A stretch of DNA of 54,333 nucleotides from Aeromicrobium sp. (GTDB lineage: Bacteria > Actinomycetota > Actinomycetes > Propionibacteriales > Nocardioidaceae): NCBI GenBank assembly GCA_025964895.1, contig JAOPXY010000094.1:1-54333 (forward strand), given 5' to 3'. Made by a program: the position numbers and the translations under genes. Each line of letters opens with the position of its first letter. Positions within the stretch are counted from its first letter, which is position 1. Under the pieces are notes generated by a model. That model had not been told where the DNA came from. It was given only the letters and a program-made list of their open reading frames with translations, and searched no databases. Of this stretch, positions 28,684 through 51,986 are shown one piece after another.

Positions 28684-28697
28684 TGCAATCGGTTGCA
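28684..28697. promoter_or_regulatory. LacI-type operator, site 2
   Basis: TGCAATCGGTTGCA, identical to site 1. It begins one base downstream of the -10 box (28703-28698) of the hydroxyacid dehydrogenase operon and so covers the transcription start. Confidence 0.82.
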
Positions 28698-29831: not shown

Positions 29832-29877
29832 AATCGGGTTTCCCTCCGGGGTGACCGTTCTTTGCCGAGTCCCGTGG

Positions 29878-32113: not shown

Positions 32114-32127
32114 AGCAAACGATTGCA
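32114..32127. promoter_or_regulatory. LacI-type operator, site 5
   Basis: AGCAAACGATTGCA. It lies just downstream of the ABC operon promoter, over the expected transcription start. Its inner 12 bases are identical to those of the intragenic site at 33952. Confidence 0.78.
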
Positions 32128-33894: not shown

Positions 33895-33932
33895 TTCATC
33901 CCCGAAAGATCACCCCAAGAAGGAGCAAGTCC

Positions 33933-35027
33933 ATGTATAGAAGCAAACGATTGCTGAGCCTGGTCGGGGCGGGCCTCGTCCTGAGCTCGATGCTGACCGC
34001 CTGCGGAGGGAGCGACGACACGCCGAGTGCCCCCGCAGCGACGATCCCCAAGACCGCGGCAGACGTGGACGGCACGATCGACACGTCGAAGGTCAAGAAG
34101 AACCTGACGGTGGCGGTCGACAACCCGTACTACCTGTTCCACGAGGACATCATCGTCGCGCTGGAGAAGGGCTACTTCAAGGACGTCGGCATCGACAAGG
34201 TCAAGATCGTGACCGTCGAGGATCCGCTGCCTGCCCTGATCGGCGGCTCGGTGGACTTCGCCAACTACGACACCGACACGGCGATCGCTGCGGCGGTCAA
34301 GGCCAAGGCCAATCTGCAGTACCTGTCGCCGTACCTCGGTGGCGAGGCCAACATCCTCGGGGTCGGCAAGGGCATCGACACAGCCGACGACCTCAAGGGC
34401 AAGACGATCACGGGCGGCCAGTTCGGCAGCCGCAACGACTTCCTCATCCGCAAGCTCCTGACCGACAACGGTCTCGACCCCGAGAAGGACGTCAAGCTCG
34501 TCAGCACCGGCGGCCAGTCCAACGAGCGGCTCCAGTCCGTCATCGCGGGCACGGTCGACGGCGCCAGCCTCCAGCTTCGCCACAAGACCCTGCTGGAGAA
34601 CGCAGGCGGCAAGTTCCTGTTCCAGGAGCTCGGCCGGGCGCCGCAGAACGGCTGGTCCGGCAACAAGATCCTGAAGGAGAGCCCCGAGACGGCGGTCGCC
34701 TTCCTCGCGGCGACCCTCAAGGCACGCCAGTTCATCACCGATCAGGCCAACAAGGACGAGGTTCTCGCGCTCATGGAGGACAACGGCTTCGATCTGCCCC
34801 AGGACTACAAGGATGCGTACTCCGCCGAGAACGACCCGAACTATCACACGGGTGACGGCGGGTTCGAGATCGCCGACATGCAGCAGTTCGTCGACGAGCA
34901 GACCGAGCTGAAGATCATCCCGGCGGGCACGGACTGGCACGACTACGTCAACCCGACGTCGCTCTGGCGGGCCCAGAAGTCGCTCGACCTGCCCCTGCGT
35001 CCGACCCCGGAGGACTTCGCCCAGTGA
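33933..35027 (+). CDS. ABC transporter substrate-binding lipoprotein
   Basis: A 364-residue NMT1/SsuA-type binding lipoprotein with lipobox LTAC (Cys24). The mature part shows LTVAVDNPYYLFHEDIIVAL, DPLPALIGGSVDFANYDTDT and GKTITGGQFGSRNDFLIRKL, typical of nitrate/sulfonate/aromatic-acid binding proteins. ATG 33933 has an AAGGAG site. Codons 7 to 11 coincide with an AGCAAACGATTGCT palindrome (33952-33965), a LacI-type operator inside the signal-peptide coding region. It overlaps the next gene by GTGA, so binding-protein and LVIVD synthesis are coupled. Confidence 0.93.
   Translation: MYRSKRLLSLVGAGLVLSSMLTACGGSDDTPSAPAATIPKTAADVDGTIDTSKVKKNLTVAVDNPYYLFHEDIIVALEKGYFKDVGIDKVKIVTVEDPLPALIGGSVDFANYDTDTAIAAAVKAKANLQYLSPYLGGEANILGVGKGIDTADDLKGKTITGGQFGSRNDFLIRKLLTDNGLDPEKDVKLVSTGGQSNERLQSVIAGTVDGASLQLRHKTLLENAGGKFLFQELGRAPQNGWSGNKILKESPETAVAFLAATLKARQFITDQANKDEVLALMEDNGFDLPQDYKDAYSAENDPNYHTGDGGFEIADMQQFVDEQTELKIIPAGTDWHDYVNPTSLWRAQKSLDLPLRPTPEDFAQ
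33952..33965. promoter_or_regulatory. LacI-type operator, site 6 (intragenic)
   Basis: AGCAAACGATTGCT inside the start of the binding-protein gene, 1.8 kb downstream of site 5. It could act as a roadblock or as a looping partner of site 5. Because it overlaps the signal-peptide codons for Ser-Lys-Arg-Leu-Leu, chance cannot be excluded. Confidence 0.55.
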
Positions 35028-36205
35028 TCGCCACAGCCTCGGCCAAGGGTCTGCGGGTCCTGGGTCATCACGACCTGGCCGGCCGGGGCGACGGCATGCA
35101 GGTGATGCGCGAAGGCGCGGCCCTGTATGTCGGGCACAACGGCACATCCGGTGCGGGCACGTCGATCCTCGACGTGTCCGCACCGGACCGCCCCGTGCTG
35201 GTCGACCAGTGGGACCAGCCCGCCAACACCCACACGCATAAGGTCCAGGTCGCCGACGGGCTTCTGCTCGTCAACCACGAACGATTCCCGTACCGTCCCA
35301 AGACACCCCTGGGGCCGCACTCCGCGGGCCTCGCGATCTACCGCCTCGACGACCCCTTCAGGCCGGAGCGCATCGGCTTCTGGGAGTCCGGCGGCAAGGG
35401 CGTCCACCGGATCGTCTGGGAGGGCGGCCGGTACGCCCACATGTCCGGGACGCCCGACGGCTATCGCGACCGGATCTGGATGACGGTCGACCTGCAGGAC
35501 CCGACCGAACCGGTCCTCGCCGGGTCGTGGCACTGGCCGGGTCAGTGGGAGGGCGGCGGCGAGACCACCGACTGGCCGGACGGGCACCGCGTCGCGGCCC
35601 ACCACGCCCTGACGGAGGGCCACCACGCATACCTCGGCTACGACGACGCCAACCTGGTCGTGCTCGACGTCTCCGATGTCACGGCGCCGAAGGACGTCGC
35701 CCGCCTGCGATGGGCCGGTGGAGCGACCCATACCTGCATGCCCCTGCTCGGGCGCGACCTGCTGGTGGTGACCGACGAGCAGCAGCACGACGGGCCGCAC
35801 GGTGAGGAGCGGCGCATCCACCTCATCGACATCGCCGACCCCGCGCGGCCGGCCTACCTGCGCACGCTGCCGGCGCCCGAGGTGGCGTTCGACGAGCTGC
35901 CTCAGCGTTTCGGGCCGCACAATCTCCATGAGAACCGGGCCGGCTCCTACCGGAGCAACCGGATCGTCTTCGCCACGTACTTCAACGCCGGCGTGCGCGT
36001 GTACGATCTGTCCGATCCCGAGGACCCGCGCGAGATCGCCCACTGGGTGTCCGAGGCACCTCCTGGCTCGCGGGTGCCGCAGGCCAACGACCTGTTCGTC
36101 GACGCGGACGGCATCGTCTGGGTCACCGACCGCGGCACCGGCGGCGTCTTCGCCCTGCTGCCCGATGAAGATCTCGCTGCGCTGATGCGCGACGCGTCGC
36201 TCTGA
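35024..36205 (+). CDS. LVIVD-repeat beta-propeller protein, paralogue 1
   Basis: A 393-residue protein made of repeated beta-propeller blades of the LVIVD type, for example LVVLDVSDVTAPKDVARL, IHLIDIADPARPAYLRTL and VRVYDLSDPEDPREIAHW, with histidine-rich segments (HTHKVQV, FGPHNLHENRAG). There is no signal peptide. GTG 35024 overlaps the binding-protein stop. The family has no assigned activity; conserved His/Asp/Asn residues could bind metal or a ligand. Its position inside the ABC import operon and the homologous gene immediately downstream suggest a role in handling the imported compound. Confidence 0.85.
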   Translation: MIATASAKGLRVLGHHDLAGRGDGMQVMREGAALYVGHNGTSGAGTSILDVSAPDRPVLVDQWDQPANTHTHKVQVADGLLLVNHERFPYRPKTPLGPHSAGLAIYRLDDPFRPERIGFWESGGKGVHRIVWEGGRYAHMSGTPDGYRDRIWMTVDLQDPTEPVLAGSWHWPGQWEGGGETTDWPDGHRVAAHHALTEGHHAYLGYDDANLVVLDVSDVTAPKDVARLRWAGGATHTCMPLLGRDLLVVTDEQQHDGPHGEERRIHLIDIADPARPAYLRTLPAPEVAFDELPQRFGPHNLHENRAGSYRSNRIVFATYFNAGVRVYDLSDPEDPREIAHWVSEAPPGSRVPQANDLFVDADGIVWVTDRGTGGVFALLPDEDLAALMRDASL

Positions 36206-36221
36206 GCCGAAGGATCGCACC

Positions 36222-37442
36222 ATGACTGACGCACCCGAGCACACCGGCGCCGGCCTCGAGCTCGTCGGCTATCACGACATCGACGGCAAGGCGGCGTTCA
36301 AGCTGGCCCTGCAGGTCGTCGGCGACCGGTGGTACCTCTACGCCACGCACTTCTGGGAGACCGAGATCTCGATCTTCGACGTCACGGACCCGGCCGACAT
36401 GCAGCTGGTCGGGTCGATCGCAGATCCCGAGCACGCCGCACCGGCCCAGGTCCAGGTCGGCGACGGCATCCTGATCGAGGGTCTCGAGCACCGGTCGATC
36501 CCGTGGGGCGGCAGCCCGGATCGGCCGACGGACGAGGGCGTACGCATCTGGGACGTGGCGGACCCGGTGTCGCCCACGCTGCTGGGTCACTGGCACACCG
36601 GCGATCACGGGGTGCATCGCAACCACTACGTCGGTGGCCGCTACGTGCACCTCGCTGCCCACCGGCCCGGGTTCGACGGCAACATCTACGTGATCCTCGA
36701 CATCGCCGACCCGAGCGTCCCGATCGAGGTCGGCCGCTGGTTCCTTCCGGAGCAGTACATCGGGGCGGGTGAGAGACCTGCCACCCGCATCTCGTTCCAC
36801 GGCCCTCCGTACGTGCACGGTGACCGCGCCTATCTCGGCTACGGTCACGGCGGCGTCGTCATCGTCGACATCTCCGACCTGACCAACCCGGTCATGGTCT
36901 CGCGCCTCGAGCTCGGCGCGGCGTTCAACAGCATGATCGCGATGCACACAGCCGTCCCGGTGCCGTCGCGCGATCTGCTGCTGGTCAACACTGAGGCGAT
37001 CGCCGAGCTGTCGCAGGAGGCCTACAACGTGGCCGGCATCGTGGACATCGCCGACGAGACCGCACCACGCCTGATCTCGCTGCTGCCCATCCCGGTCCCC
37101 GGCCCGGACGCCGACTATCCCAACTACAGCCGTCGCGGAGGCCGCTTCGGTCCTCACAACCAGCACCACCCGCAGGACGGCGACCCGCACCTGTTCCAGT
37201 CCGCCGACCTGGTGTTCATGACCTGGTTCAACGCCGGCCTCCGCGTGTACGACATCAGCGACCCGTACCTGCCGCGCGAGATCGCCTGGTATCTGCCGGA
37301 CGACCCGACGGTGCGCCGCGGGATGCTGCCGAAGTCCGCGCTGGTCACTCAGTCCGAGGACGTGCTGGTCGATGCCCGGGGCAACATCTTCTTCACCGAC
37401 AAGAACCACGGGCTCCATGCCGTACGCCTGACCGCCCGTTGA
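36222..37442 (+). CDS. LVIVD-repeat beta-propeller protein, paralogue 2
   Basis: A 406-residue paralogue of the preceding protein with the same blades, for example VVIVDISDLTNPVMVSRL and LRVYDISDPYLPREIAWYL, and the same FGPHN segment (RFGPHNQHHPQDG). It differs in having HRNHYVGGRYVHLAAHRPG in the middle. The 16-base gap to the previous stop and GAAGGA site before ATG 36222 place it in the same operon. The two could form a heterodimer or act on successive intermediates; neither is established. It converges with the FAD enzyme gene, 29 bases apart. Confidence 0.85.
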   Translation: MTDAPEHTGAGLELVGYHDIDGKAAFKLALQVVGDRWYLYATHFWETEISIFDVTDPADMQLVGSIADPEHAAPAQVQVGDGILIEGLEHRSIPWGGSPDRPTDEGVRIWDVADPVSPTLLGHWHTGDHGVHRNHYVGGRYVHLAAHRPGFDGNIYVILDIADPSVPIEVGRWFLPEQYIGAGERPATRISFHGPPYVHGDRAYLGYGHGGVVIVDISDLTNPVMVSRLELGAAFNSMIAMHTAVPVPSRDLLLVNTEAIAELSQEAYNVAGIVDIADETAPRLISLLPIPVPGPDADYPNYSRRGGRFGPHNQHHPQDGDPHLFQSADLVFMTWFNAGLRVYDISDPYLPREIAWYLPDDPTVRRGMLPKSALVTQSEDVLVDARGNIFFTDKNHGLHAVRLTAR

Positions 37443-37471: not shown

Positions 37472-39016
37472 TCAAGGCGCCGACATCACCGAGGCGGGGT
37501 CGATGCCGAGGTCCTGCAGCACGACGCGGGCGGTGTTGCGTCCCGGTCGCCCGGAGACCGAGCCACCCGGGTGGGATGTCGATCCGGTCAGGTAGAGCCC
37601 GGCGACGTCGGTGCGGTAGTCGAGCCAACCCGGGATGATGCTCCCGCCGTCGAGGACGAACTCGCCGCCGTGGCATGAGCCGCCGATGTTGGCGAGGTTG
37701 TGAGCGGCGATCGTGGTCGGCGACTCCGGGCGCATTGCGAGGATGTCGTCGGGCGCGAGCCCGTCGACGTGCCGTCGTGCGTACGTCAGCAGGGTCTCGG
37801 CGTAGTCGGCCGCGTCGTCATCGGTCCACGGGTGCCCGTTCAGCAGCTTCGGAGCAACCGTGAGGAACTTGAATACCCCACCGGGTGCGCGATCGGGATC
37901 GACAACCGTGGAGGACACCATCAGCAGCCAGGGCTCCTCGGTCTCGAGCTCGCCGGCGTAGGCCGCGGCGACCTGGCGGCGCAGTCCCTCGGGAGAGCCG
38001 AGGCCGCCGGCCACCGCCCGGAGGCCGCCGACGACCGTGCGATACCGGATGTCGGCGCGCAGGGCGAAGTGCACGGCGAACACCGAGAGCCCCGGCCGCC
38101 ACCGAGCGGCTGCGTCGCTGGCCACGCTGGACTCGATGTCGAGCATCGCCGGGAGCTCGCGCAGATGACTGCCTGCGACGACCGCGCGCCGGGCCCGAAA
38201 GCTCCGGCCGTCGGACGTCCGCACGCCGACGCAGCGCCCATCCTCTGTGATGAACGTGCTGGCCCACGCCGACGTCTCGACCGTGCCGCCGTGATCCGCG
38301 ATGTGCGCGACGAGCGCCGCGGGAAGTGCGCCGGATCCGCCCACAGGGGTCGTCCAGCCGAAGCCGATGCGCCCGGCCATGATGGCGGCGGGCAGGGCAC
38401 CCGTGCCGGGGCGCTCGGGCGGCTGGATCGTCGCGAAGGCCATCCAGGTCATCGCGTGCCGTACGACGGGATGCTCGAACGTCGACATGATGACGTCCCA
38501 GGCGCTGCGGAGGCGAAGGGTCTCGTAGCGCTCGGACCACTCGTCGCCCGGCAGTGGCAGGCCCGCCGAGTAGTGGGCGTGTGCCGTACGGAGGCCGGCG
38601 TTCCAGTCGCCCATCATCGTGTTCAGCGCGTCGGCATCGGCCAGCGAGAAGCGCGCGAACTCCTTGGCAGTGGCCCCGAGATCGGGATGGATCATCAGCA
38701 GGTCGTCACCGGGCAGCGGCAGCACGACGGCGGGATCGGTGATCAGGTAGTCGAGTCCGTAGCGCGCGAGCAGCCCTAGCTCGTCGGCGCGGATCAGGGG
38801 GTTGGACTGCAGGACGACGTGCGCACTGGAGCACGAGTCGTGCTGCCAGCCCGGGAGGGTCAGCTCCTCGGTCACGGTGTTGCCGCCGACCACGTCGCGA
38901 CCCTCGAGGACTGTCACCGACAGTCCTGCCTCGGCGAGATAGGCGGCGGTCACCAAGGCGTTGTGGCCTCCGCCGACGACGACGACATCTGACACGCGAT
39001 CGGGTGTTGCGGGCAT
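37472..39016 (-). CDS. FAD-dependent oxidoreductase, phytoene desaturase-like
   Basis: A 514-residue flavoprotein of the CrtI/amine-oxidase-like clan. The FAD loop is VVVVGGGHNALVTAAYLAEAG (GGGHNA at 15-20), followed by LEGRDVVGGNTVTEE; the C-terminal FAD motif is GLYLTGSTSHPGGSVSGRPGRN. Many such proteins are misannotated as phytoene dehydrogenases; no carotenoid genes are nearby, so a dehydrogenase or isomerase acting on the island's substrate is more likely. ATG 39016 has a GGAAGGA site. It is divergent from the C-C hydrolase gene with operator site 7 between them. Confidence 0.88.
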   Translation of the reverse strand: MPATPDRVSDVVVVGGGHNALVTAAYLAEAGLSVTVLEGRDVVGGNTVTEELTLPGWQHDSCSSAHVVLQSNPLIRADELGLLARYGLDYLITDPAVVLPLPGDDLLMIHPDLGATAKEFARFSLADADALNTMMGDWNAGLRTAHAHYSAGLPLPGDEWSERYETLRLRSAWDVIMSTFEHPVVRHAMTWMAFATIQPPERPGTGALPAAIMAGRIGFGWTTPVGGSGALPAALVAHIADHGGTVETSAWASTFITEDGRCVGVRTSDGRSFRARRAVVAGSHLRELPAMLDIESSVASDAAARWRPGLSVFAVHFALRADIRYRTVVGGLRAVAGGLGSPEGLRRQVAAAYAGELETEEPWLLMVSSTVVDPDRAPGGVFKFLTVAPKLLNGHPWTDDDAADYAETLLTYARRHVDGLAPDDILAMRPESPTTIAAHNLANIGGSCHGGEFVLDGGSIIPGWLDYRTDVAGLYLTGSTSHPGGSVSGRPGRNTARVVLQDLGIDPASVMSAP

Positions 39017-39050: not shown

Positions 39051-39079
39051 AACGTACAGAGACGTGCAATCGATTGCAA
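39051..39079 (-). promoter_or_regulatory. Promoter of the FAD oxidoreductase gene
   Basis: Minus-strand -35 TTGCAA (39079-39074) and -10 TACGTT (39056-39051) with a 17-base spacer. The -35 box is part of operator site 7, so repressor and polymerase would compete. Confidence 0.55.
39065..39078. promoter_or_regulatory. LacI-type operator, site 7 (perfect palindrome)
   Basis: TGCAATCGATTGCA, a perfect 14-bp palindrome in the 73-base gap between the divergent FAD enzyme (39016) and C-C hydrolase (39090) genes. It touches the AAGGA ribosome site of the hydrolase and the -35 box of the FAD enzyme, so both genes should respond together. Confidence 0.88.
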
Positions 39080-39089
39080 GGATGGCTTC

Positions 39090-40157
39090 ATGGACGAGTA
39101 CGTCGCTTCCGCCCGCGCCCACTGGGGCCCACGCTTCACCGCCAACGGTGTCCCGGTGGGTGACTTCGAGCGGGTGCTCGGCAGCCTGGAGTCATGGGAC
39201 GACTGGTGCTCGGCGTGGTCCGAGGCGGCGGCGATCCACGAGGGGCTCGGCGAGCAGGCGCTTGCTGAGGGTCGGCTCCGCTCCGCCGGCTCGCACTTCA
39301 GCACGGCGTCCGTGACCTACCACTTCGCGAAGTTCGTGTTCGTCCGTCATCCCGAGCAGATGCGGCGCGCCCACGAGGCGGCCGTGCGATGCCTCGAGGC
39401 GGCTCTGCCGCACCTCGATCCGCCGGGCGAGCGGCTCGAGATCCCGTTCGACGGCGCGGCGATCTTCGGTGTCCTGCGCAAGCCGGCCGGCCCCGGACCG
39501 CATCCCGCCGTGATCCTCGTGCCGGGACTGGACTCGACCAAGGAGGAGTTCAAGGCGACCGAGGACCTGTTCCTCGAGCGCGGCCTGGCGACCTTCAGTG
39601 TCGACGGGCCCGGTCAGGGTGAGGCCGAGTACGCCTTGTCGATCCGGCCCGACTGGGAGGTGCCCGGCCGGGCATTCGTCGATGCCCTGGTGGCTCGCGA
39701 CGACATCGACGCCGACCGCATCGGTGTGTGGGGCGTCAGCCTGGGCGGCTACTACGCTCCGCGCTTCGTGAGCGGCGACGACCGCATCAAGGCATGCATC
39801 ACGCTGTGCGGCCCCTACAGCTTCGGCGAGAACTGGGACTCGCTCCCCGCGCTGACCCGCGAGACGTTCATCGCCAGGTCGGGCGCGACGGACGAGGAGG
39901 AGGGCCGGGCCAAGGCGCTCGAGCTGACGATGGCGGGTCGGACCTCGCAGATCGCCTGTCCGATGCTGATCATCGGGGGCAAGAAGGACCGGCTGATCCC
40001 GTGGCAGCAGGCCGAGCGCCTGCACCACGAGACGAGCGCGGTCAGTGAGTTCCTGCTGCTGGAGGAGGGCAATCACGGCTGCGCCAATGTGGTCGCCCAG
40101 CACCGCTACCGCGCCGCGGACTGGATGGCGGGACACCTCGGCGGGCCCCTGCTCTGA
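39090..40157 (+). CDS. Alpha/beta hydrolase, C-C hydrolase (dihydroxypseudooxynicotine hydrolase-like)
   Basis: A 355-residue alpha/beta hydrolase with a helical N-terminal cap (about 1-110) as in 2,6-dihydroxypseudooxynicotine hydrolase of nicotine catabolism. The nucleophile is Ser217 (WGVSLGGYYAPR), the acid Asp300 (GGKKDRLIP) and the base His329 (EEGNHGCAN); from memory these are the same residue numbers as in the pAO1 enzyme, and a Glu (E247, GENWD) lies near that enzyme's extra catalytic Glu. That enzyme cleaves a C-C bond next to a ketone. ATG 39090 follows AAGGA by seven bases. Operator site 7 abuts the ribosome site. The MFS gene follows after 44 bases. Confidence 0.88.
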   Translation: MDEYVASARAHWGPRFTANGVPVGDFERVLGSLESWDDWCSAWSEAAAIHEGLGEQALAEGRLRSAGSHFSTASVTYHFAKFVFVRHPEQMRRAHEAAVRCLEAALPHLDPPGERLEIPFDGAAIFGVLRKPAGPGPHPAVILVPGLDSTKEEFKATEDLFLERGLATFSVDGPGQGEAEYALSIRPDWEVPGRAFVDALVARDDIDADRIGVWGVSLGGYYAPRFVSGDDRIKACITLCGPYSFGENWDSLPALTRETFIARSGATDEEEGRAKALELTMAGRTSQIACPMLIIGGKKDRLIPWQQAERLHHETSAVSEFLLLEEGNHGCANVVAQHRYRAADWMAGHLGGPLL

Positions 40158-40189
40158 CGGGGACGGGGGGAACGCCCGCGACGGCCCCA

Positions 40190-40195
40190 TATGAT
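40190..40195 (+). promoter_or_regulatory. -10 box of a leaderless promoter for the MFS gene
   Basis: TATGAT, six bases before GTG 40202, a near-consensus box that would start transcription at or next to the start codon. No clear -35 box is visible. Confidence 0.45.
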
Positions 40196-40201
40196 CTGGG
40201 C

Positions 40202-41437
40202 GTGGCTCCGCCCTCCTTCCGTGAGCTTCGGCCCATCGCGGTCCCTGCCTACGGGCCGGCGTTCCTCGGGGCGATCGGCACAGGCGCCATCACCCCCGTC
40301 GTCGCGCTGACCGCGCGGGGTCTCGGTGGAAGTGTCGGAGTGGCTGCGCTGGTCGTGGCCTTGCTCGGCGTCGGACAGCTGGTGGGTGACCTGCCTGCCG
40401 GGGCTCTCGCCGCGCGGATCGGCGAGAAGCGGACCTTGCTCCTCGGCGCGATGCTGGAGGCCCTCGGCGGGCTGGGGTGTCTGTTGGCACCGAATGTCGT
40501 GGTGCTCGCCGGATCGGTGCTCGTGATCGGCATGGCCGGATCGGTCTTCAGCCTGGCCCGCCAGTCGTACCTGGCCGCGGTGGTGCCGATCGGCCTGCGG
40601 GCACGGGCCATGTCGACGCTGGGCGGGGTCAATCGCATCGGCACGTTCATCGGTCCGTTCCTCGGTGCTCTGGCGATCAGCCAGTTCGGGATCAAGGCGG
40701 CGTACGCCGTCGACATGGTGGCGTCCGTCGCGGCGTTCGTCCTGGTCCTGACGATCCGTGACATCACGGCCTCCGAGCGCGGGGCGCCCGGGCACGCCGA
40801 GCGCGACTCGGTGCTGCGGGTCGTCGCCAGGCATCGGCGCACCCTGGCAACCCTGGGTGTCGGCGCGATGATCCTGTCCGCGGCCCGGAGCTCACGGACC
40901 GTCGTGGTGCCGCTCTGGGCGGCCGCGATCGGACTCGAGGCGACTCACGCCTCGCTCGTCGTCGGCATCTCGGCCGGGGTCGACATGCTGCTGTTCTATC
41001 CGGGCGGATCGATCATGGACCGGTGGGGCCGGCTCGTGGTCGCTTTGCCGAGCATGGTCGTGCTCGGGGCCGGCCTGATCGCGATCGTCTTCACGTCGGG
41101 GTTCTGGTCACTGGTCGGCGTCGGCTGTGTCCTCGGCGTCGGGAACGGCATCGGCTCCGGCCTCATCGCGACGCTCGGCGCGGATGCCGCTCCGGCGTCG
41201 GGTCGGCCCCAGTTCCTGGCCGGCTGGCGGCTGATGTCCGACAGCGGCGCCGCCGGAGGACCCCTGCTGATGAGTGCCATCACGATCGCGTTCCCGCTGT
41301 CCGCGGCGGCGGTGACGATGGGCATCGTGACATTCCTCGGGGCGGCCTGGCTGCGGGTGTTCATCCCGAAGTTCGATCCCGTGTCGGCCTCGACGCTCGA
41401 CCGCCGGCTGACGGCTAGTCGAAGAACACGATCTTGA
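40202..41437 (+). CDS. MFS transporter
   Basis: A 411-residue carrier with about twelve membrane segments. Loop 2-3 reads GALAARIGEKRTLLLG, a good MFS signature, and a long central loop (about 180-200) separates the halves. The GTG 40202 start is consistent with a leaderless message from the TATGAT at 40190, so it may be expressed apart from the upstream hydrolase. It is not closely similar to the MFS protein at 29878, so the island has two carriers. Its last 23 bases overlap the convergent TauE/SafE gene. Confidence 0.88.
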   Translation: MAPPSFRELRPIAVPAYGPAFLGAIGTGAITPVVALTARGLGGSVGVAALVVALLGVGQLVGDLPAGALAARIGEKRTLLLGAMLEALGGLGCLLAPNVVVLAGSVLVIGMAGSVFSLARQSYLAAVVPIGLRARAMSTLGGVNRIGTFIGPFLGALAISQFGIKAAYAVDMVASVAAFVLVLTIRDITASERGAPGHAERDSVLRVVARHRRTLATLGVGAMILSAARSSRTVVVPLWAAAIGLEATHASLVVGISAGVDMLLFYPGGSIMDRWGRLVVALPSMVVLGAGLIAIVFTSGFWSLVGVGCVLGVGNGIGSGLIATLGADAAPASGRPQFLAGWRLMSDSGAAGGPLLMSAITIAFPLSAAAVTMGIVTFLGAAWLRVFIPKFDPVSASTLDRRLTASRRTRS

Positions 41438-42176
41438 CGATCGCGGTCAGGCCGATCGTCACGATCATCCCCCGCAGGACCGGGGTGGGCAGCCGCCGGC
41501 CGTACCGGGCGCTGATCGCGGCGCCGATGACCGAACCGGCGGCGATCAGTCCGACGACCGTCCAGTCGACGAACTCCCACGCGAAGATGATGAAGAACAG
41601 CGCCGCCGTGGCGTTCACGGCGGTCGCCAGCACGTTCTTGATGCCCGTGATTCCCTGCAGGCTGAGCGTCAGGAACAAGCCCATCAGCCCGGTGAGCAAG
41701 ACGCCCTGTGCTGCGCCGAAGTAGCCGCCGTAGACACCTGTCCCGAAGATGCCGGCCCACAGCACCGGGCTGAGCCGCGTACGCTCCGGCGCAGGTCCCC
41801 GGTCGCGGGTGCGCCGCTGCACGATCGGACCGATCAGGACCATGAGCACGCCCAGGCCGATCAGGACAGGCACGATCGTCTCGAACGTGTCCTCCGGCAG
41901 CACGAACAGCAGCGCAGCCCCGGTCACTCCACCGAGCAGCGACGCCGGGAGGAGTTGCCGGACGATGCGGCCGCTGCCCCTGAGCTCGCGCCGGTAGCCG
42001 TGGATGCCGGTCAGACCACCGGCGACGACACCGATGTTGTTGGAGACGTTGGCGACGAGTGGCGGATAGCCGAGGAACAGCAGCGTGGGGAACGTCACGA
42101 GCGCTCCGGATCCGACGAGCACGTTGATGGCTCCGGCCCACATGCCGGCAGCGAAGATCGCCAGGTGCTCCAGCAC
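41415..42176 (-). CDS. TauE/SafE-family (TSUP) membrane permease
   Basis: A 253-residue protein with about seven or eight hydrophobic segments and the two TSUP repeats: GAINVLVGSGALVTFPTLLFLG and, in the second half, FGTGVYGGYFGAAQGVLL. Members export sulfite, sulfonates or organic acids, or import taurine. GTG 42176 lies four bases after the hydroxylase large-subunit stop, so it is the third gene of that operon. Sulfonate transport is possible but not shown; an organic anion is equally likely. Confidence 0.88.
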   Translation of the reverse strand: MLEHLAIFAAGMWAGAINVLVGSGALVTFPTLLFLGYPPLVANVSNNIGVVAGGLTGIHGYRRELRGSGRIVRQLLPASLLGGVTGAALLFVLPEDTFETIVPVLIGLGVLMVLIGPIVQRRTRDRGPAPERTRLSPVLWAGIFGTGVYGGYFGAAQGVLLTGLMGLFLTLSLQGITGIKNVLATAVNATAALFFIIFAWEFVDWTVVGLIAAGSVIGAAISARYGRRLPTPVLRGMIVTIGLTAIVKIVFFD

Positions 42177-42180
42177 GACG

Positions 42181-44289
42181 TCAGGCCTCGTCGATCGCGG
42201 CGACGACGTTCGCGGGCGTGAACGGCAGGTTCCGCACGCGTACGCCGATCGCGTCGTGGATCGCGTTGGCGATCGCCCCGGGCACCGGCCCCTGCGTGGC
42301 CTCTCCGGCGCCCAGTGGTGGCTCGTCGGGCCGCGAGACGATGTGGACGTCGACGCGGGGTGCGTCGCTGAACCGGAGGATCGGATACGCCTCCCAGTCC
42401 GTGCTGGTGATCCTCGAGCGGTCGAACGCGACCTGCTCCAGCAGGCTCCAGCTCGTCGACTGGATCGCGCCGCCCTCGATCTGATTGCGCACGCCGTCGT
42501 CGTTGACGACCCGTCCGACGTCGACCGCGATCGTGAGCCGGGTGACGTGGACGGCCTCCTCGGCCTCCACCTCGGCGATGACCGCGCAGTAGGAGCCGCG
42601 GTTCTTGTAGCGCGAGTACGAGATGCCGCGCCCCACGCCCTCGGCGGTGGGGGAGCCCCACCCGGCGGCCTCGGCGACGGTGGTCAGGACGTCGCGGGCA
42701 CGAGGGTCGGTCAGGTGGGCGAGGCGGAAGGCGAGCGGGTCCTGTCCGGTGGCCTCGGCGATCTCGTCCATGAACGACTCCAGGGCGAACACGTTGAGGT
42801 GTGCCCCCAGCGAGCGCAGCGCCGATGACCTGATCGGCATCGCCAGCAGCCGGTGCGTCGTGATGTCCATGCGAGCGAAGTCGTACGTCGGCTCGGCATT
42901 GCGGGCGCTGCCGTAGCCGCGGGCGGGCGGCGGGTCGATCGCCGGAGGGACACGGTCCACGCCCGCCCGGTGCGCGTCCGAGAGCAGGCCGTGAGCGGGC
43001 GCGTATCCGGGTCGTGCCGTGTGGCCGTTCCCCGAGGCGTCATACGTCCAGTCGCTGACCCGGCCGTTGTCGCCGACCGTCGCGGTCACGTCGCCGATCA
43101 TCGCAGGCCCGAACGGCTCCCAGCGCAGCTCGTCGGCGCGGCTCCACTGCACCCGGACGTGCCGGCCCGGGACGTGTGTCGCGATCAGCGCGGCATCGAA
43201 GGCGGCGTCATCGGCCGAGTTGTGGCCGTAGCACCCAGCGCCCTCGACGTGCTGGACGATGACATCCTCCACCTCCAGACCGAGCGCGCGTGCGGTCGCC
43301 GCGCGCAGGGGGAAGATGCCCTGGCTGTGGCTCCAGACCTCGAGCCGCCCTCCGGCGAACCGGGCGATCCCGCAGCTCGGCGCGATCGAGCCGTGAGCGA
43401 CGAAGGGCTTGGAGTAGGTCCGGCTCATCGTCGTCGACCCGGTGCCGTGCACCGCCCCGTCTTTGCGGATGGGCGAGGACTCGGTCTCCTGCGACCGGAT
43501 CCAGTCCGGCAACCTGGAGCTGTCGGGGAGCGGTTCGGTGTCGGTCCAGGTGGCGCCCGCCGCCAGCCTCGCCGCCGCCCGGTCGGCGAGGCCCTCCCGT
43601 GTCGCGAGCACGGCGAGGAAGTCGTGGTCGCGGACGATGTGCTCGACGCCGGGCAGCCCGGCCACCTCGTCGACCGGCGCCCCGAGGAGGTGAGCACCCA
43701 TGCCGGGTGGCCGCACGATGCGCGCGTGCAGCATCTCGTCGAAGGTCAGGTCGTGGATGAAGCGCGGGCGGCCGAAGATCTTGTCCGGCAGGTCGACGCG
43801 CGACATCGAGGTCGCCTCGCCGATCGGAAGGAACGCGACGGCCAGTGCCTCGTCGCCGGCCTCGATGTCGAGATCGACGTTGTCGACGAGATCTCCGTAG
43901 CCGTACGGTCGGCCGCCCGGCGCTGCGAACGTGCCGTCCGAGAACGTGATCTCGTCGGGGGACACCCCCGAGCGGGCCGCCGCGGCACGGAGGAACAGCA
44001 GCCGCACCTCCGCACTGGCCCGCCGTACGGCCGCGCCCGAGAACGTGACCGAGAGGCTGCCGGCCGTGACCCCCTCGTCCGGTGAGATCTCGGTGTTGGC
44101 GGCGACCGGGCGTACGGCGCCCGCCCGCAGGCCGAGCTCCTGGGTGGCGATCTGGGTCAGCGCCGTGACGATGCCCTGGCCCAGCTCCACCTTGCCGACC
44201 CGCAGGTCGAACGTGCCGTCGGGGTGGGGGGCCAACCAGGTCGACAGACGGGGATTCGCCGCGAGTGACGGCGGCAGCCCGGTCGTCAA
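42181..44289 (-). CDS. Molybdenum hydroxylase large subunit (IorB/NicB-like)
   Basis: A 702-residue molybdopterin subunit of the xanthine-oxidase family, in the isoquinoline 1-oxidoreductase/nicotinate hydroxylase branch that works with only a small Fe-S subunit. Domains include the opening region with GKVELGQGIVTALTQIA, and the C-terminal active-site Glu663 in PPLGAGEATQGPVPGAIANA. Enzymes of this group add water-derived oxygen to N-heterocyclic or aldehyde carbons. The start is TTG 44289, overlapping the small-subunit stop as TTGA, which fixes it. No FAD-binding subunit and no c-type cytochrome domain is present, so the electron acceptor is unclear. Confidence 0.9.
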   Translation of the reverse strand: MTTGLPPSLAANPRLSTWLAPHPDGTFDLRVGKVELGQGIVTALTQIATQELGLRAGAVRPVAANTEISPDEGVTAGSLSVTFSGAAVRRASAEVRLLFLRAAAARSGVSPDEITFSDGTFAAPGGRPYGYGDLVDNVDLDIEAGDEALAVAFLPIGEATSMSRVDLPDKIFGRPRFIHDLTFDEMLHARIVRPPGMGAHLLGAPVDEVAGLPGVEHIVRDHDFLAVLATREGLADRAAARLAAGATWTDTEPLPDSSRLPDWIRSQETESSPIRKDGAVHGTGSTTMSRTYSKPFVAHGSIAPSCGIARFAGGRLEVWSHSQGIFPLRAATARALGLEVEDVIVQHVEGAGCYGHNSADDAAFDAALIATHVPGRHVRVQWSRADELRWEPFGPAMIGDVTATVGDNGRVSDWTYDASGNGHTARPGYAPAHGLLSDAHRAGVDRVPPAIDPPPARGYGSARNAEPTYDFARMDITTHRLLAMPIRSSALRSLGAHLNVFALESFMDEIAEATGQDPLAFRLAHLTDPRARDVLTTVAEAAGWGSPTAEGVGRGISYSRYKNRGSYCAVIAEVEAEEAVHVTRLTIAVDVGRVVNDDGVRNQIEGGAIQSTSWSLLEQVAFDRSRITSTDWEAYPILRFSDAPRVDVHIVSRPDEPPLGAGEATQGPVPGAIANAIHDAIGVRVRNLPFTPANVVAAIDEA

Positions 44290-44753
44290 CCGGATCGCTC
44301 CGCCGCGAGCAGGACGGCATCGATGAAGCGCTGCTGTGTGCCGCACCGGCACAGGTTGCGGTCGAGCGCAGCGGCCACCTCGTCGCGGGTCGGGCGGGGA
44401 TTGGCGCGCAGGAACGCCGCTGCGTTCATCAGGATTCCCGAGACGCAGTAGCCGCACTGCCCCGCCTGGAGGTCGAGGAAGGCGGTCTGCAGCGGGTGAG
44501 GGGCGTCCTCGGTGCCGAGACCCTCCAGGGTCTCGATCTCGGCGGTCCCGACGTACTCGATCGGCGTGTCACAGGCATACGTCGGACGCCCGTCGAGCAG
44601 CACGGTGCACGCGCCGCACAGCCCCAGGCCACAGCCGAACTTCGGCGACGTCAGCCCGAGGTCATTGCGCAGAACCTCCAGCACCGACGTCTCGGGTGGG
44701 ACCTCCACCTCGCGCGTCCTGCCGTTGACGTTCAGCTGTGTCGTCTCCGGCAC
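44286..44753 (-). CDS. Molybdenum hydroxylase [2Fe-2S] subunit (IorA-like)
   Basis: A 155-residue protein with two [2Fe-2S] clusters: the plant-type motif FGCGLGLCGACTVLL and later C in TYACDTP, then the helical cluster GQCGYCVSG...NLCRCGTQQ. It passes electrons from the Mo subunit to an acceptor. GTG 44753 has an AGGAG site six bases upstream. ATG 44813 was rejected because it falls inside operator site 8. First gene of the operon with the large subunit and TSUP permease. Confidence 0.92.
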   Translation of the reverse strand: MPETTQLNVNGRTREVEVPPETSVLEVLRNDLGLTSPKFGCGLGLCGACTVLLDGRPTYACDTPIEYVGTAEIETLEGLGTEDAPHPLQTAFLDLQAGQCGYCVSGILMNAAAFLRANPRPTRDEVAAALDRNLCRCGTQQRFIDAVLLAAERSG

Positions 44754-44808
44754 GGGTGCTCCTCGGCGGCGTGCACCCAGCGCGGGGTGGCGTTGAACGG
44801 CGATCGAA

Positions 44809-44822
44809 TGCAATCGATTGTT
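44809..44822. promoter_or_regulatory. LacI-type operator, site 8
   Basis: TGCAATCGATTGTT, matching the perfect site 7 except at the last two bases. It starts three bases downstream of the hydroxylase promoter -10 box and covers the transcription start. Confidence 0.82.
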
Positions 44823-44825
44823 AGC

Positions 44826-44854
44826 AGTATGTGTGCGGCCGCGATCCCCGTCAA
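44826..44854 (-). promoter_or_regulatory. Promoter of the molybdenum hydroxylase operon
   Basis: Minus-strand -35 TTGACG (44854-44849) and -10 CATACT (44831-44826), 17-base spacer. The -35 box overlaps the last codon and stop of the upstream hydrolase gene (stop 44851). Confidence 0.65.
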
Positions 44855-45795
44855 GCAGTGGGCTTGAGGTGCTGGTCCAGAAAGGCGATGACCCCGTCGA
44901 TGGCGCGGTCCTGCACCTCGTCGACCTCGACGACCCCGTCCGCGCCGAGCACGGGAAAGATGTAGCCGTGCAGCGGGTGGTCCCACGACACCCACGTGGC
45001 GTCCTTGCCCGACTCCTCGAGGAGGTCGTAGCTGAGCCGGAAGATGCCCTGTAGGTGGTCGTCGTCGCGGCCCATCACGAGCATGGGGGTGTCGATCGGG
45101 CCGATGCGCTCGAGCGCCAGCGGCTCGTTGATGCGCGACCGGACGAATGCGGGATCGCGCATCTGCATCTCCTCGATGTTGCGCAGGTGCGTCTCGGGAT
45201 TGACGAAGGCGGAGTCGTCCGGGGTCAGATCGAGGAACTCGTGGTTGGCCGGCTCGCACGCCACGCCGGCGCGGACCACCCGGCCGTACTGCGAGGCGAG
45301 CTTGTAGAGCATCTCGCCGGCATGGCTGACGCCCACGTGGCCCAGGCGGTCCGCGTCGATCCGGGGGTGCGCGCCGACGTGCCGCAGGATCGCCAGCTCG
45401 TCCTCGAACTCCAGGGGCGAGCGGTTCAGCAGCTCCATGCCCTGCCGCTGGTCGACGACCAAGGGCCCGCCATGGTGGAACCCCAGCTCGACCTCGGTGC
45501 GGTAGCGCCCCCACGCGCAGGCGTATCCGGCATCCAGGAGGCGCTCCATAACGTAGGCGTGGGTCCGCACACGCTCACGCAGCCACGCCAGACCACCTCC
45601 GCCGTTGCCGTACGCGAGGAACACGAACGGGAAGGTCCCCTCGTCGGCCGGGGTGCGCAGGGCATACGGCGCATAGAGACCGTCGCGCGTCTCGGCCAGG
45701 TGATAGCTGACGGGACGATCGGAACCCGGCACCTCGTCGACGGCGACGGGCTCGGTGATGTCGGGGGAACGAAGCTGGTTCATGGCGTATCTCAT
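44851..45795 (-). CDS. Alpha/beta hydrolase of the island
   Basis: A 314-residue alpha/beta hydrolase in the prolyl-oligopeptidase/dienelactone-hydrolase-like clan. The nucleophile is Ser157 in GHVGVSHAGEMLYKL and the base histidine lies in DHPLHGYIFP; the acid is probably in GRDDDHLQG. It differs from the C-C hydrolase at 39090 in lacking the helical cap. ATG 45795 is used; ATG 45783 is possible. It is transcribed from the promoter under operator site 9, directly in front of the hydroxylase operon on the same strand. Confidence 0.85.
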   Translation of the reverse strand: MRYAMNQLRSPDITEPVAVDEVPGSDRPVSYHLAETRDGLYAPYALRTPADEGTFPFVFLAYGNGGGGLAWLRERVRTHAYVMERLLDAGYACAWGRYRTEVELGFHHGGPLVVDQRQGMELLNRSPLEFEDELAILRHVGAHPRIDADRLGHVGVSHAGEMLYKLASQYGRVVRAGVACEPANHEFLDLTPDDSAFVNPETHLRNIEEMQMRDPAFVRSRINEPLALERIGPIDTPMLVMGRDDDHLQGIFRLSYDLLEESGKDATWVSWDHPLHGYIFPVLGADGVVEVDEVQDRAIDGVIAFLDQHLKPTA

Positions 45796-45802: not shown

Positions 45803-45816
45803 TGCAAACGTTTGCA
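45803..45816. promoter_or_regulatory. LacI-type operator, site 9 (perfect palindrome)
   Basis: TGCAAACGTTTGCA, a perfect 14-bp palindrome seven bases upstream of ATG 45795. A weak -10, TACGGT (45821-45816), overlaps its first base, so the site covers the transcription start. Confidence 0.85.
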
Positions 45817-49405: not shown

Positions 49406-50205
49406 CGACTTTGGACGACGTCCTCTCCGATCTGACCGCCGAGAGCCTGCAGCTCGACCAATGGGTCGCCGGGCTGGCGGTCGGGGCCTGGGACACCGTG
49501 ACGACCCCCGAGGGGTGGACCGTCACCGACCAGATCGCCCACCTGCACTGGACCGACATCGCCTCGCTGACCGCGATCCGCGAGCCGGACGCCTTCGGCC
49601 GGATGCTCAAGGAGGCGGCCGGCGATCCCACGGGGTACGTCGACGCGCAGTCCGCCGAGACGGCGCTCGTGCCCGCGGGTGACCTGCTGCTCCTGTGGCG
49701 GGAGGGCCGGGTCGACCTCGACGTCGCCCTCCGCGCGATGCCGGACGGCGAGCGCATCCCGTGGTTCGGCCCGCCCATGAGCCCGGCGTCGATGGCGACC
49801 GCTCGCATCATGGAGACCTGGGCGCACGGCCACGACATCGCCGAGGCGCTGGGCATCACGGTGCCGCGCACGTCCAGGGCGAGGCACGTCTGCCACATCG
49901 GCGTCCGCGCCCGCGGCTACGCGTACCTGGCCCGCGGTGAGCGAGACCCGGGCGTGGAGATCCGCGTCGAGCTGACCGGGCCCGACGGCGATCTGTGGGC
50001 ATGGGGCCCCGACGACGCGACGGAGCGCGTGACCGGCTCGGGACACGACTTCGCGCTCCTGGCCACCCGCCGCCGGCACCTCGACGACGTCGACGTGCAC
50101 GCCGAGGGTGAGCACGCGGCGCACTGGTTGACGATCGTCCAGGCCTTCGCCGGTCTGCCGGGCACCGATCCCGTGCCGCTGGCCGACCGGGGCCTGGGCG
50201 GATGA
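49402..50205 (+). CDS. TIGR03084-family protein (DinB/maleylpyruvate isomerase fold)
   Basis: A 267-residue protein of the actinobacterial TIGR03084 family, with an N-terminal four-helix metal-binding domain like mycothiol-dependent maleylpyruvate isomerase: WTVTDQIAHLHWTD and ETWAHGHDIAEAL supply the histidines. The C-terminal 90 residues are a separate SCP2-like or wing domain. No reaction is known. ATG 49402 overlaps the TetR stop, and the next gene starts at ATG 50202, overlapping its own TGA, so translation is coupled throughout. Confidence 0.85.
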   Translation: MTTLDDVLSDLTAESLQLDQWVAGLAVGAWDTVTTPEGWTVTDQIAHLHWTDIASLTAIREPDAFGRMLKEAAGDPTGYVDAQSAETALVPAGDLLLLWREGRVDLDVALRAMPDGERIPWFGPPMSPASMATARIMETWAHGHDIAEALGITVPRTSRARHVCHIGVRARGYAYLARGERDPGVEIRVELTGPDGDLWAWGPDDATERVTGSGHDFALLATRRRHLDDVDVHAEGEHAAHWLTIVQAFAGLPGTDPVPLADRGLGG

Positions 50206-51986
50206 GCATCCGCGTCGGCAACTGCTCGGGCTACTACGGCGACCGCCTCTCGGCGATGCGCGAGATGCTGGACGGCGGCGAGCTCGACTACCTGACCGGC
50301 GACTACCTCGCCGAGCTGACAATGCTGATCCTCGGCCGTGACCGCATGAAGGACGAGTCGCTCGGCTACGCGAAGACGTTCGTGCGGCAGATGACGGACT
50401 CCATGGCGCTGGCCAAGGATCGCGGCGTCAGGATCGTGGCGAACGCGGGTGGCTTGAACCCGGCCGCGCTGGCCACGAGGCTGCGGGAGATCGCCGCGTC
50501 GCAGGGACTCGACGTCGCGATCGCGCACGTGGAGGGCGACGACCTGCGCGAGCGTGCCGCCGAGCTGTCGTTCGGCGACGTCCTGACTGCCAACGCCTAC
50601 CTGGGCGCGTTCGGCATCGCGTCGGCGCTCAGCGCGGGAGCCGACGTCGTCGTGACCGGTCGGGTCACGGACGCATCGGTCGTCGTCGGCCCCGCCGTCG
50701 CACACTTCGGCTGGGGACGGGACGATCTCGACCGGCTGGCCGCGGCGGTCGTCGCCGGGCACGTCATCGAGTGCGGAACGCAGGCGACCGGCGGCAACTT
50801 CTCCGGCTTCGCCGACCTCCCGGACGGTGCGTGGGACCGGCCGCCGGGATTCCCGATCGCGGAGATCTCCGAGGACGGCTCGGTCGTCATCACCAAGCAC
50901 GAGGGCACGGGCGGCGCCGTCACGGTCGACACCGTCACGGCGCAGCTCGTCTACGAGATCGGCTCGCCGGTGTACCTCGGACCGGACGTCTCGGCGCGGC
51001 TCGACTCGGTGACGCTGCGCCAGGACGGCACCGACCGGGTCGCGATCGACGGGGTCGTCGGCGAGCCGCCGCCGGCGACGACGAAGGTGTGCCTCAACGA
51101 GCTCGGCGGGTTCCGCAACGGCGTCGAGTTCCTGCTGACGGGGCTCGACATCCCGCGCAAGGCCGACCTGGTCCGGCGCCAGATGGAGGCCGCGCTGTCG
51201 GCGGGCCAGCGGCCGGAGACCGTCGAATGGCACCTCGACCGCACCGACACGCCCGATCCGGCGACCCAGGCCCACGCGACGTCGCTGCTGCGCCTGCACG
51301 TCCGCAGCGCCCGGCCCGAACCGGTCGGCCGCGCATTCAGCGACGCCGCGGTGCAGCTGGCCCTCGGGTCGTACCCGGGATTCAGCGTGTCCCGGCCCCC
51401 CGCGGCCGGCTCCCCGTACGGCGTCTACCGCGCCGCGTACGTCCCCCAGACCGAGGTGCCGCACGTCGTCGTGCACCCCGACGGACGCCGCGAGGACGTC
51501 CCCCCGCCCACCGGAACCGCGAGTGGTGCGGACCGGACAGTTCGGGACGGCGTGTCCGTCCACGCCACACCGCTCGGGGCCGCGAACGCACCACTGGGCG
51601 ACTGGGCGGGCGACACGGTCCGTGCCCCGCTGGGCCGCCTCGTCCACGCCCGGTCCGGCGACAAGGGCGGCGACGCCAACGTGGGCGTCTGGATCCCGGC
51701 CGATCACCCAAATTTGCACGACGCCTACGCATGGCTCGTCAACCTGCTGGACGAGCCGACGATCCGCGAGCTGCTGCCCGAAGCGGCCACGCTTCCCCTC
51801 GAGATCCACCCCCTGCCCAGCCTCGCCGCGGTCAACGTCGTGATCCACGGCCTGCTCGGCGAGGGGGTCGCGTCGTCGACGCGGCTCGACCCGCAGGCGA
51901 AGGGCCTCGGCGAGTGGCTCCGCGCCCGCGACTGCGCCGTGCCCAGGATCCTGCTGTCCGACTCCTCCAAGGAGGACGTCCTGTGA
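50202..51986 (+). CDS. AtuA-like (acyclic terpene utilisation) protein
   Basis: A 594-residue protein of the AtuA/DUF1446 family with an N-terminal about 450-residue domain (RVGNCSGYYGDRLSAMREML, VTGRVTDASVVVGPA, ETQATGGN-like ECGTQATGGNFSGF) and a C-terminal AtuA-associated domain (about 480-594, LGRLVHARSGDKGGDANVG). Pseudomonas AtuA is needed for citronellol/geraniol breakdown and its role is unsettled. ATG 50202 overlaps the preceding stop, and the acyl-CoA dehydrogenase begins at GTG 51983 overlapping this stop. Confidence 0.9.
   Translation: MSIRVGNCSGYYGDRLSAMREMLDGGELDYLTGDYLAELTMLILGRDRMKDESLGYAKTFVRQMTDSMALAKDRGVRIVANAGGLNPAALATRLREIAASQGLDVAIAHVEGDDLRERAAELSFGDVLTANAYLGAFGIASALSAGADVVVTGRVTDASVVVGPAVAHFGWGRDDLDRLAAAVVAGHVIECGTQATGGNFSGFADLPDGAWDRPPGFPIAEISEDGSVVITKHEGTGGAVTVDTVTAQLVYEIGSPVYLGPDVSARLDSVTLRQDGTDRVAIDGVVGEPPPATTKVCLNELGGFRNGVEFLLTGLDIPRKADLVRRQMEAALSAGQRPETVEWHLDRTDTPDPATQAHATSLLRLHVRSARPEPVGRAFSDAAVQLALGSYPGFSVSRPPAAGSPYGVYRAAYVPQTEVPHVVVHPDGRREDVPPPTGTASGADRTVRDGVSVHATPLGAANAPLGDWAGDTVRAPLGRLVHARSGDKGGDANVGVWIPADHPNLHDAYAWLVNLLDEPTIRELLPEAATLPLEIHPLPSLAAVNVVIHGLLGEGVASSTRLDPQAKGLGEWLRARDCAVPRILLSDSSKEDVL

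Follow-up and report, generated by a model that had tools for sequence, protein, structure and literature searches.

A probable LacI-controlled catabolic island around a relative of 2,6-dihydroxypseudooxynicotine hydrolase in Aeromicrobium sp.

The 54,333-nucleotide contig JAOPXY010000094.1 of Aeromicrobium sp., the whole of which was analysed and is called the window hereafter, carries an alpha/beta hydrolase gene at position 39090 among genes for a molybdenum (Mo) hydroxylase, a flavin adenine dinucleotide (FAD) oxidoreductase, transporters, an M24 enzyme, several dehydrogenases and a LacI-family regulator. A Pfam scan of 20 proteins encoded between 20.2 and 45.8 kb showed that hydrolases and dehydrogenases predominate, and no oxygenase domain was detected in any of the 20. 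These genes probably make up one catabolic island of about 25 kb under LacI control, larger than the span of 39065-45795 delimited in the initial annotation, and on balance we favour a function in which the 39090 hydrolase splits a 1,3-diketone-like intermediate by hydrolysis (retro-Claisen).

When translated from the ATG at 39090, the hydrolase comprised 355 residues, with Ser217 lying in GVSLGG, Asp300 in GKKDR and His329 in GNHG. A phmmer search of the PDB returned 2,6-dihydroxypseudooxynicotine (DHPON) hydrolase (2jbw) as the top match (1.1e-46, residues 12-347), followed by AntI (1.1e-16), Wdyg1/Ayg1 (5.2e-13 and 2.1e-11) and FrsA (1.4e-9). The triad of the pAO1 enzyme is given as Ser217/Asp300/His329 in a review (PMC6122326), and the three residues of the window protein, which had been proposed in the initial annotation, aligned with the triad of 2jbw at exactly these numbers. 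Conservation was then read from an alignment of 60 rows, made up of the window protein and 59 of the 92 hydrolase-encoding places detected in the loci of its relatives (numbered with the prefix L); L029 and L042 were left out for stop codons in the span used, and L035 and the rest to thin the set. Ser217 was kept in 59 of the 60 rows, and Asp300, His329, Asp148, Trp36, Trp39 and His78 in every one, so that the pAO1 state, Glu at position 148, did not occur in this group. The same review names Glu248 as the acid/base of the pAO1 enzyme. The pAO1 protein taken from plasmid record NZ_CP089294 has Ser at 217, Asp at 300, His at 329, Glu at 148 and Trp at 248, and since residue 248 is Trp, the residue meant by the review is presumably Glu148. 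In a paralog at L056:1636-2670, which has an intact copy nearby, the nucleophile Ser217 is replaced by Ala; this paralog is possibly a pseudoenzyme or a partner subunit.

An AlphaFold2 model built from the same 60 rows (pLDDT 95.7, pTM 0.94) revealed helices filling residues 3-108 ahead of the first core strand. Four chains of 2jbw stood at the top of the Foldseek search (TM 0.88-0.91), and VIA-align superposed residues 3-354 of the model on 8-354 of 2jbw, cap included (Z 48.7, root-mean-square deviation 1.7, 345 aligned). Lower scores were obtained for AntI (40.8), FrsA (40.3), Wdyg1/Ayg1 (37.0-37.9), the acylaminoacyl peptidase SMU_737 (3fnb, 37.0) and AbyA5 (36.6), and esterases and lipases did not exceed 27.3. 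The absence of a helical cap, or a closer kinship to esterases or lipases, had been named beforehand as grounds for abandoning the proposed chemistry; the cap is present in the model, and an acetyl-xylan-esterase or lipase type was rejected by the fold ranking. It is clear from the end-to-end match of cap and core and from the triad that the 39090 protein is a full-length relative of DHPON hydrolase.

The constant partner of this hydrolase is a core of the M24 enzyme, the beta-hydroxyacid dehydrogenase, the succinate-semialdehyde-type dehydrogenase and the 2-oxoacid dehydrogenase, and not the Mo enzyme. In a phylum sample of 396 genomes, including the window's own, with cut-offs of 1e-90 for the hydrolase, 1e-120 for M24 and 1e-140 for the Mo subunit, the hydrolase was found in 10 genomes and M24 in 31, and all 10 fell among the 31 (Fisher 1.9e-12, kinship ignored). 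The Mo subunit was found in three genomes and co-occurred with the hydrolase in that of the window alone, one of the 10 hydrolase-positive genomes. Mo hydroxylation and C-C hydrolysis had initially been taken as the essential pair of the pathway, and this was not supported. Among 12 genomes picked because the fetched hydrolase flank was free of M24, an M24 relative was present elsewhere in 10 (1e-60; one of them just 49% identical) and absent, at the same cut-off, in the two behind L092 and L079. A similar core was also met with no hydrolase in view: a Streptomyces plasmid has it next to an LLM-class oxidoreductase and an ABC transporter; in Phaeobacter and Pacificitalea (Rhodobacterales) plasmids it stood beside sugar-annotated transporters, with a short-chain dehydrogenase replacing the hydroxyacid dehydrogenase; and the genus-mate G013 has the core and lacks a hydrolase ortholog. 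The core may therefore handle a downstream intermediate, for which the hydrolase would be one of several entries.

The gene neighbourhoods were compared in 80 loci, many of them short, which encode the best 80 of 116 hydrolase relatives, with identity cut-offs of our own choice. Relatives of M24 were found in the fetched flanks of 40 of the 80 loci, of the dehydrogenase in 35, of the Mo subunit in 13, of the aldehyde dehydrogenase in 11 and of the LVIVD proteins in 10 (further counts in Table 1); among the 35 loci with 7 kb on both sides, M24 was found in 24 and the Mo subunit in 11. The mycobacterial loci (L013, L014, L016, L017 and L030) have retained, as far as they reach, the ABC transporter, the two LVIVD genes, the FAD gene, the hydrolase, the Mo hydroxylase, TauE and the second hydrolase; they differ from the window in that TauE lies on the opposite side of the Mo genes and that no MFS gene equivalent to 40202 is present. 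In many other actinobacteria the hydrolase adjoins a 3-hydroxyisobutyrate-dehydrogenase-type enzyme, M24 and an aldehyde dehydrogenase, often together with LacI, an MFS gene and a branched-chain-type ABC transporter, and betaproteobacteria have one to three hydrolases alongside TctC proteins, often with M24, E1 and E2. The hydrolase and M24 core were seen in Actinomycetota, Pseudomonadota and one Dormiibacterota bin. The actinobacterial bin behind L026 (G441, 1.5 Mb covered), which to judge from its type of bin name may come from freshwater, has a stretch of about 30 kb (L140-L142, GC content 0.47) with three hydrolase-family members of 65, 33 and 45% identity, the second hydrolase, two hydroxyacid dehydrogenases, a FAD enzyme, M24 (81%), a VOC protein, E1, a thiamine pyrophosphate (TPP) enzyme, a creatininase-family protein, a DHDPS-type protein and a branched-chain-type transporter. 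Five operators with no more than one mismatch accompany these genes, and in the 58 kb fetched there was no match to the window's Mo hydroxylase at 1e-8.

The palindrome TGCAATCGATTGCA was first read ahead of the 39090 hydrolase, and near variants of it ahead of the second hydrolase as well as the Mo operon, when the promoters were inspected. Allowing up to two mismatches, the pattern TGCAANCGNTTGCA gave 10 sites in the window, as compared with 0.89 expected from shuffles (maximum 3). Two mismatches were present in the sites at 12547, 28764, 31981, 33942 and 44809, of which the first lies within a distant gene and is likely due to chance and that at 33942 falls inside the start of the binding-protein gene; no site at up to two mismatches was found in the window beyond 45816. 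In the whole 3.44-Mb genome there were six sites at up to one mismatch. Five fall within the island, and the other one is inside an open frame which we tentatively read as rapZ. The LacI-family protein is presumed, from its family and the form of the motif, to bind these operators.

The start regions of the hydrolase relatives (230 bases) were searched in the same way, the loci being divided by record title, according to our own list, into 41 proteobacterial and 39 others, one Dormiibacterota bin included. At up to two mismatches a site was present in 29 of the 39 non-proteobacterial loci, and at up to one mismatch in 27, as against none of the 41 proteobacterial loci at either level; in 4000 shuffled segments, which preserve base composition only, the frequencies were 0.6% and 0/4000. 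Sites at up to two mismatches also preceded the second hydrolase in 5/9, the ABC ATPase in 4/4 and the dehydrogenase in 16/28 non-proteobacterial loci. The FAD gene was preceded by an operator in 11 of 16 such loci, the mycobacterial site being the divergent one common with the hydrolase. Directly ahead of M24 a site was met in only 2 of 21, because M24 usually sits behind another gene. Directly ahead of the small Mo subunit there was none in the single locus available, where the Mo genes seem to be preceded by a carboxymuconolactone-decarboxylase-like gene. Ahead of the whole Mo operon, however, a site was found in all five mycobacterial loci reaching that operon, with one mismatch at L013:14325 and L030:14289 and two at L014:14289, L016:8596 and L017:14291; one-mismatch sites were likewise located at L042:16725 and L047:16744, and none in L035:16500-21059. 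The Mo hydroxylase thus appears to belong to the same regulon in the window.

Table 1. Genes and operator-like sites of the island in the window; counts per 80 refer to the fetched flanks of the loci compared.
Feature	Coordinates	Strand	Remark
2-oxoacid dehydrogenase E2	20210-21526	-	protein family search
Fused E1 alpha/beta, 2-oxoacid dehydrogenase	21456-23657	-	start approximate; relative's match starts at residue 226 of the long open reading frame
LacI-type operator TGCAATCGGTTGCA	23688-23701		exact match, ahead of likely E1 start
GntR/FCD regulator	24317-24976	+	protein family search
Succinate-semialdehyde-type aldehyde dehydrogenase	24984-26453	-	protein family search
M24 (creatinase/DddP-like) enzyme	26471-27700	-	start approximate
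3-hydroxyisobutyrate-dehydrogenase-family enzyme (beta-hydroxyacid dehydrogenase)	27711-28658	-	start approximate
LacI-type operator TGCAATCGGTTGCA	28684-28697		exact, ahead of dehydrogenase-M24-aldehyde dehydrogenase operon; also in L014, L017, L030
LacI-family regulator	28812-29918	-	relative in 29/80 loci
MFS transporter	29878-31050	-	relative in 25/80 loci
Operator with one mismatch	32114-32127		ahead of ABC transporter operon
TauT/NMT1-type ABC transporter (ATPase, permease, binding protein)	32180-35027	+	protein family search
Two LVIVD proteins	35024-37442	+	beta-propeller model for second
CrtO/CrtI-like FAD oxidoreductase	37472-39001	-	divergent from hydrolase gene; relative in 20/80 loci
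LacI-type operator TGCAATCGATTGCA	39065-39078		exact, between divergent FAD gene and hydrolase
Alpha/beta hydrolase, DHPON hydrolase/AntI/Ayg1 group	39090-40157	+	N-terminal helical cap, triad S217/D300/H329, Asp148
MFS transporter	40202-41437	+	protein family search
TauE/SafE-type exporter	41415-42176	-	also in mycobacterial islands
Mo-cofactor-binding subunit, Mo hydroxylase (IorB-type, two-subunit)	42181-44289	-	MoCoBD_1, MoCoBD_2
[2Fe-2S] subunit, Mo hydroxylase	44286-44753	-	Fer2, Fer2_2; start GTG 44753
Operator-like site, two mismatches	44809-44822		ahead of Mo hydroxylase operon
Second alpha/beta-hydrolase-like protein	44851-45795	-	nucleophile-elbow-like GVSHAG by eye; relative in 10/80 loci
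LacI-type operator TGCAAACGTTTGCA	45803-45816		exact, ahead of second hydrolase; exact there also in L013, L014, L016, L017, L030

The metal ligands of M24 peptidases we take to be Asp, Asp, His, Glu and Glu. With the places fixed by alignment with 3q6d, Asp282, His359, Glu392 and Glu407 of the M24 enzyme were kept in all 39 rows, and the second metal Asp was found to be Cys293, with Cys in 38 of the rows and a gap in one. With this substitution the protein probably does not work as an ordinary peptidase. Of the M24 non-peptidases (DddP, creatinase, ectoine hydrolase), the DddP model matched it over most of its length (41-427), but at 79 bits, where the cut-off is 600, and the Cys is a further difference; in plasmid records this branch is labelled 'Xaa-Pro peptidase family protein'. 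The LVIVD proteins have invariant His132, His193, His242, His312 and Glu258 (numbered as in the 36222 protein) in common with three distant relatives (15 rows), and the second of them was modelled as a propeller (pLDDT 84.4). Their profile matched the propeller phosphotriesterase 5hrm (Sb-PTE of Sphingobium TCM1) at 2.1e-17, and in the fold comparison the Z of 32.2 was level with that of a WD40 protein (32.0). As a guess, they may be metal-dependent hydrolases.

The initial annotation had described a two-subunit, IorAB-like Mo hydroxylase at 42181-44753, and the domains found in the two subunits bear this out. A separate [2Fe-2S] subunit together with a Mo subunit whose N-terminal part matches a late part of xanthine dehydrogenase presumably marks the IorAB-type order. 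In the window the [2Fe-2S] subunit is separate and has two domains, and residues 80-177 of the Mo subunit match 457-554 of XdhB, its C-terminal part matching the end of other Mo enzymes. The Mo subunit probably starts at the TTG at 44289, which overlaps the small-subunit stop codon. No NCBIfam cut-off was reached by this enzyme, and its closest solved relative was the aldehyde dehydrogenase 8gy3. The genome encodes the Mob_synth_C domain of molybdopterin synthesis, and the Mo cofactor can therefore probably be made. A weak carboxymuconolactone-decarboxylase-like protein recurs by the Mo operon or the hydrolase in 15 loci (e.g. L013:13660-14304); none was noticed there in the window.

The succinate-semialdehyde-type dehydrogenase assigned to the pathway at the outset is indeed present, although outside the span then given, and its score with the NCBIfam SSADH model (559.5 bits) lies under the cut-off of 646.35. 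A nicotine-type ring-cleaving gene had been reported missing, and none was found among the 20 island proteins scanned. As to the amine oxidase, also stated to be missing, the FAD gene scored with Pfam Amino_oxidase, but its best NCBIfam models were CrtO/CrtI-like, all scores being under the cut-off. Two nicotine genes only were used as queries against the window's own genome (95% complete). The 2,6-dihydroxypyridine hydroxylase of pAO1 (dhpH) gave no match in a search made without a positive control, and (S)-6-hydroxynicotine oxidase gave nine weak relatives, the best at 29% identity.

In the pathway that we propose, a compound would be taken up via the TauT/NMT1-type ABC transporter and/or the MFS carriers. 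The FAD enzyme, joined in this branch by the Mo hydroxylase, would oxidise it, the product being a vinylogous acid or a 1,3-diketone. Ser217 of the 39090 hydrolase would then attack one carbonyl with Asp300/His329 as the relay, and Asp148 might serve as acid/base for tautomerisation; the water-driven cleavage of the C-C bond would free a carboxylic acid. The acid fragment could be passed through the dehydrogenase, M24, the succinate-semialdehyde-type dehydrogenase and the E1/E2 core to central metabolism. With an N-heterocycle, an aromatic ketone and an alicyclic polyol as candidate substrates, we lean to a non-aromatic one, because a ring-opening oxygenase is needless if the hydrolase itself opens the ring.

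The pathway had initially been framed as one for an N-heterocycle or a 1,3-diketone, with a different substrate of the same chemistry as the likely case, and it is this latter part, along with the 1,3-diketone alternative, that fits the data better. According to the N-heterocycle scheme, the Mo hydroxylase would hydroxylate the ring next to the nitrogen and the hydrolase would remove an acyl side chain ending as succinate. The hydrolase is closest to the nicotine enzyme, whose gene on pAO1 too adjoins a Mo enzyme gene; an operator-like site precedes the Mo operon in the window and five mycobacterial loci, and in Shinella HZN7 a relative (37%) shares one region with a Mo hydroxylase. The scheme nevertheless appears unlikely in view of the accessory distribution of the Mo hydroxylase (1/10 genomes, 13/80 loci), the aldehyde dehydrogenase as closest solved relative of its Mo subunit, the lack of a ring-cleaving oxygenase in the 20 island proteins, and the position of pAO1 outside the window's clade in the tree, on a very long branch and with unsure placement. 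It would also be conceivable that oxidation of a polyhydroxylated alicyclic or sugar-like compound (cyclitol, quinate-like or mycosporine-like) yields a cyclic 1,3-diketone whose ring is opened by the hydrolase with no need of an oxygenase; a diketo-inositol is hydrolysed in Thermotoga. This agrees with the lack of oxygenase domains, with the LacI-type regulator, with the sugar-annotated ABC transporter and short-chain dehydrogenases beside the Phaeobacter core and the similarly composed transporter and short-chain dehydrogenase beside that of G013, and with the three hydrolases of G441, its TPP enzyme, its DHDPS-type protein and its alcohol dehydrogenase, for which threonine 3-dehydrogenase and inosose 3-dehydrogenase gave the best, though weak, matches. 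However, LacI and the transporter type are weak guides, the G441 family matches are under their cut-offs and the window's own transporter is of the TauT/NMT1 type, so we regard this substrate class as rather improbable, if worth keeping in view.

A further alternative disputes the enzyme itself, which would then be a FrsA-group enzyme, esterase or peptidase-like, placed in a catabolic island by chance. The best Pfam family was indeed FrsA-like (46.6 bits, cut-off 22), and the FrsA structures were level with AntI in the superposition. On the other hand, 2jbw led FrsA by 8 Z units and about 120 bits (162.9 vs 40.9), and the FrsA model of NCBIfam gave 56.8 against a cut-off of 477, which makes this alternative unlikely.

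Several observations weigh against retro-Claisen cleavage in a LacI-controlled island. The hydrolase is just 33-34% identical to 2jbw, and C-C hydrolysis is not proven by the fold, because FrsA and SMU_737 share it and carry out other or unclear reactions. The sites claimed at 44809 and 33942 carry two mismatches each, no operator preceded E1 in the three other loci, and the hydrolase promoters lacked one in 10 of the 39 non-proteobacterial and all 41 proteobacterial loci. The reversed pattern matched more often across the genome (14 sites vs 6), so that the operator argument rests on clustering and not on number. Finally, the association with M24 (Fisher 2.4e-11 when the own genome was removed) ignores kinship, and four of the 10 genomes belong to one family.

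The proposed enzyme was compared with the named systems nearest to it. DHPON hydrolase shares the whole fold, the helical cap and the triad and is nearest by both sequence and structure; the window differs from it in Asp148 for Glu148, in the M24 core as partner and in the lack of a nicotine cluster. The polyketide-shortening hydrolases AntI and Ayg1/Wdyg1 have the same fold and cap, and AntI likewise has Asp at the aligned position 148, but identities are 20-23% and these enzymes are biosynthetic according to their PDB titles, whereas the setting of the window enzyme is catabolic. A DHPON-hydrolase-like protein is also part of the Variovorax isoflavone catabolism cluster, but its identity to the pAO1 enzyme is 25% and genes for ring hydroxylation and dioxygenation accompany it (PMC11069340). 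The riboflavin/lumichrome pathway similarly employs a xanthine-oxidase-type enzyme and hydrolases, as described in PMC12746152; it was rejected as a candidate since the P450, Rieske and catechol dioxygenases which it requires were not found in the island.

Neither the fold nor the class of chemistry is new, and the co-regulated set around the hydrolase was not met in the open-licence literature searched; a core of M24 with semialdehyde and 2-oxoacid dehydrogenases was absent from the titles of those papers. The occurrence of the hydrolase and M24 core across phyla and in a bin of 1.5 Mb suggests that the compound could be a common one. It can be put forward, tentatively and at less than even chances, that the island represents an undescribed, widespread and oxygenase-free route by which a common natural compound is broken down; here the DHPON-hydrolase-like enzyme would open or cleave a polyoxygenated 1,3-diketone while the Cys-substituted M24 and the propeller metalloenzymes would perform further unprecedented steps. 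With a defined gene set and a readable operator, the substrate should be findable by a simple reporter screen. Retro-Claisen cleavage in this setting would add another role in catabolism to those of the nicotine-type C-C hydrolase fold and would give a function to a probably non-peptidase branch of M24, and its significance would be greater with a common substrate and new steps.

The possibility of a contaminant contig was rejected, as the tetranucleotide profiles of four window segments correlated at 0.93-0.96 with 12 other contigs of the same genome and at 0.83-0.87 with four mycobacterial loci. An old genus trait was not supported either, a hydrolase ortholog being present in none of 40 sampled genus-mates (best 35%). 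The second hydrolase matched no Pfam or NCBIfam family, an Rfam scan of the window and a PADLOC search with two proteins gave no match, and a sigma-70 scan gave a single weak site close to chance level. An AtuA-family gene (acyclic terpene utilisation) lies at 50202-51986, beyond the island.

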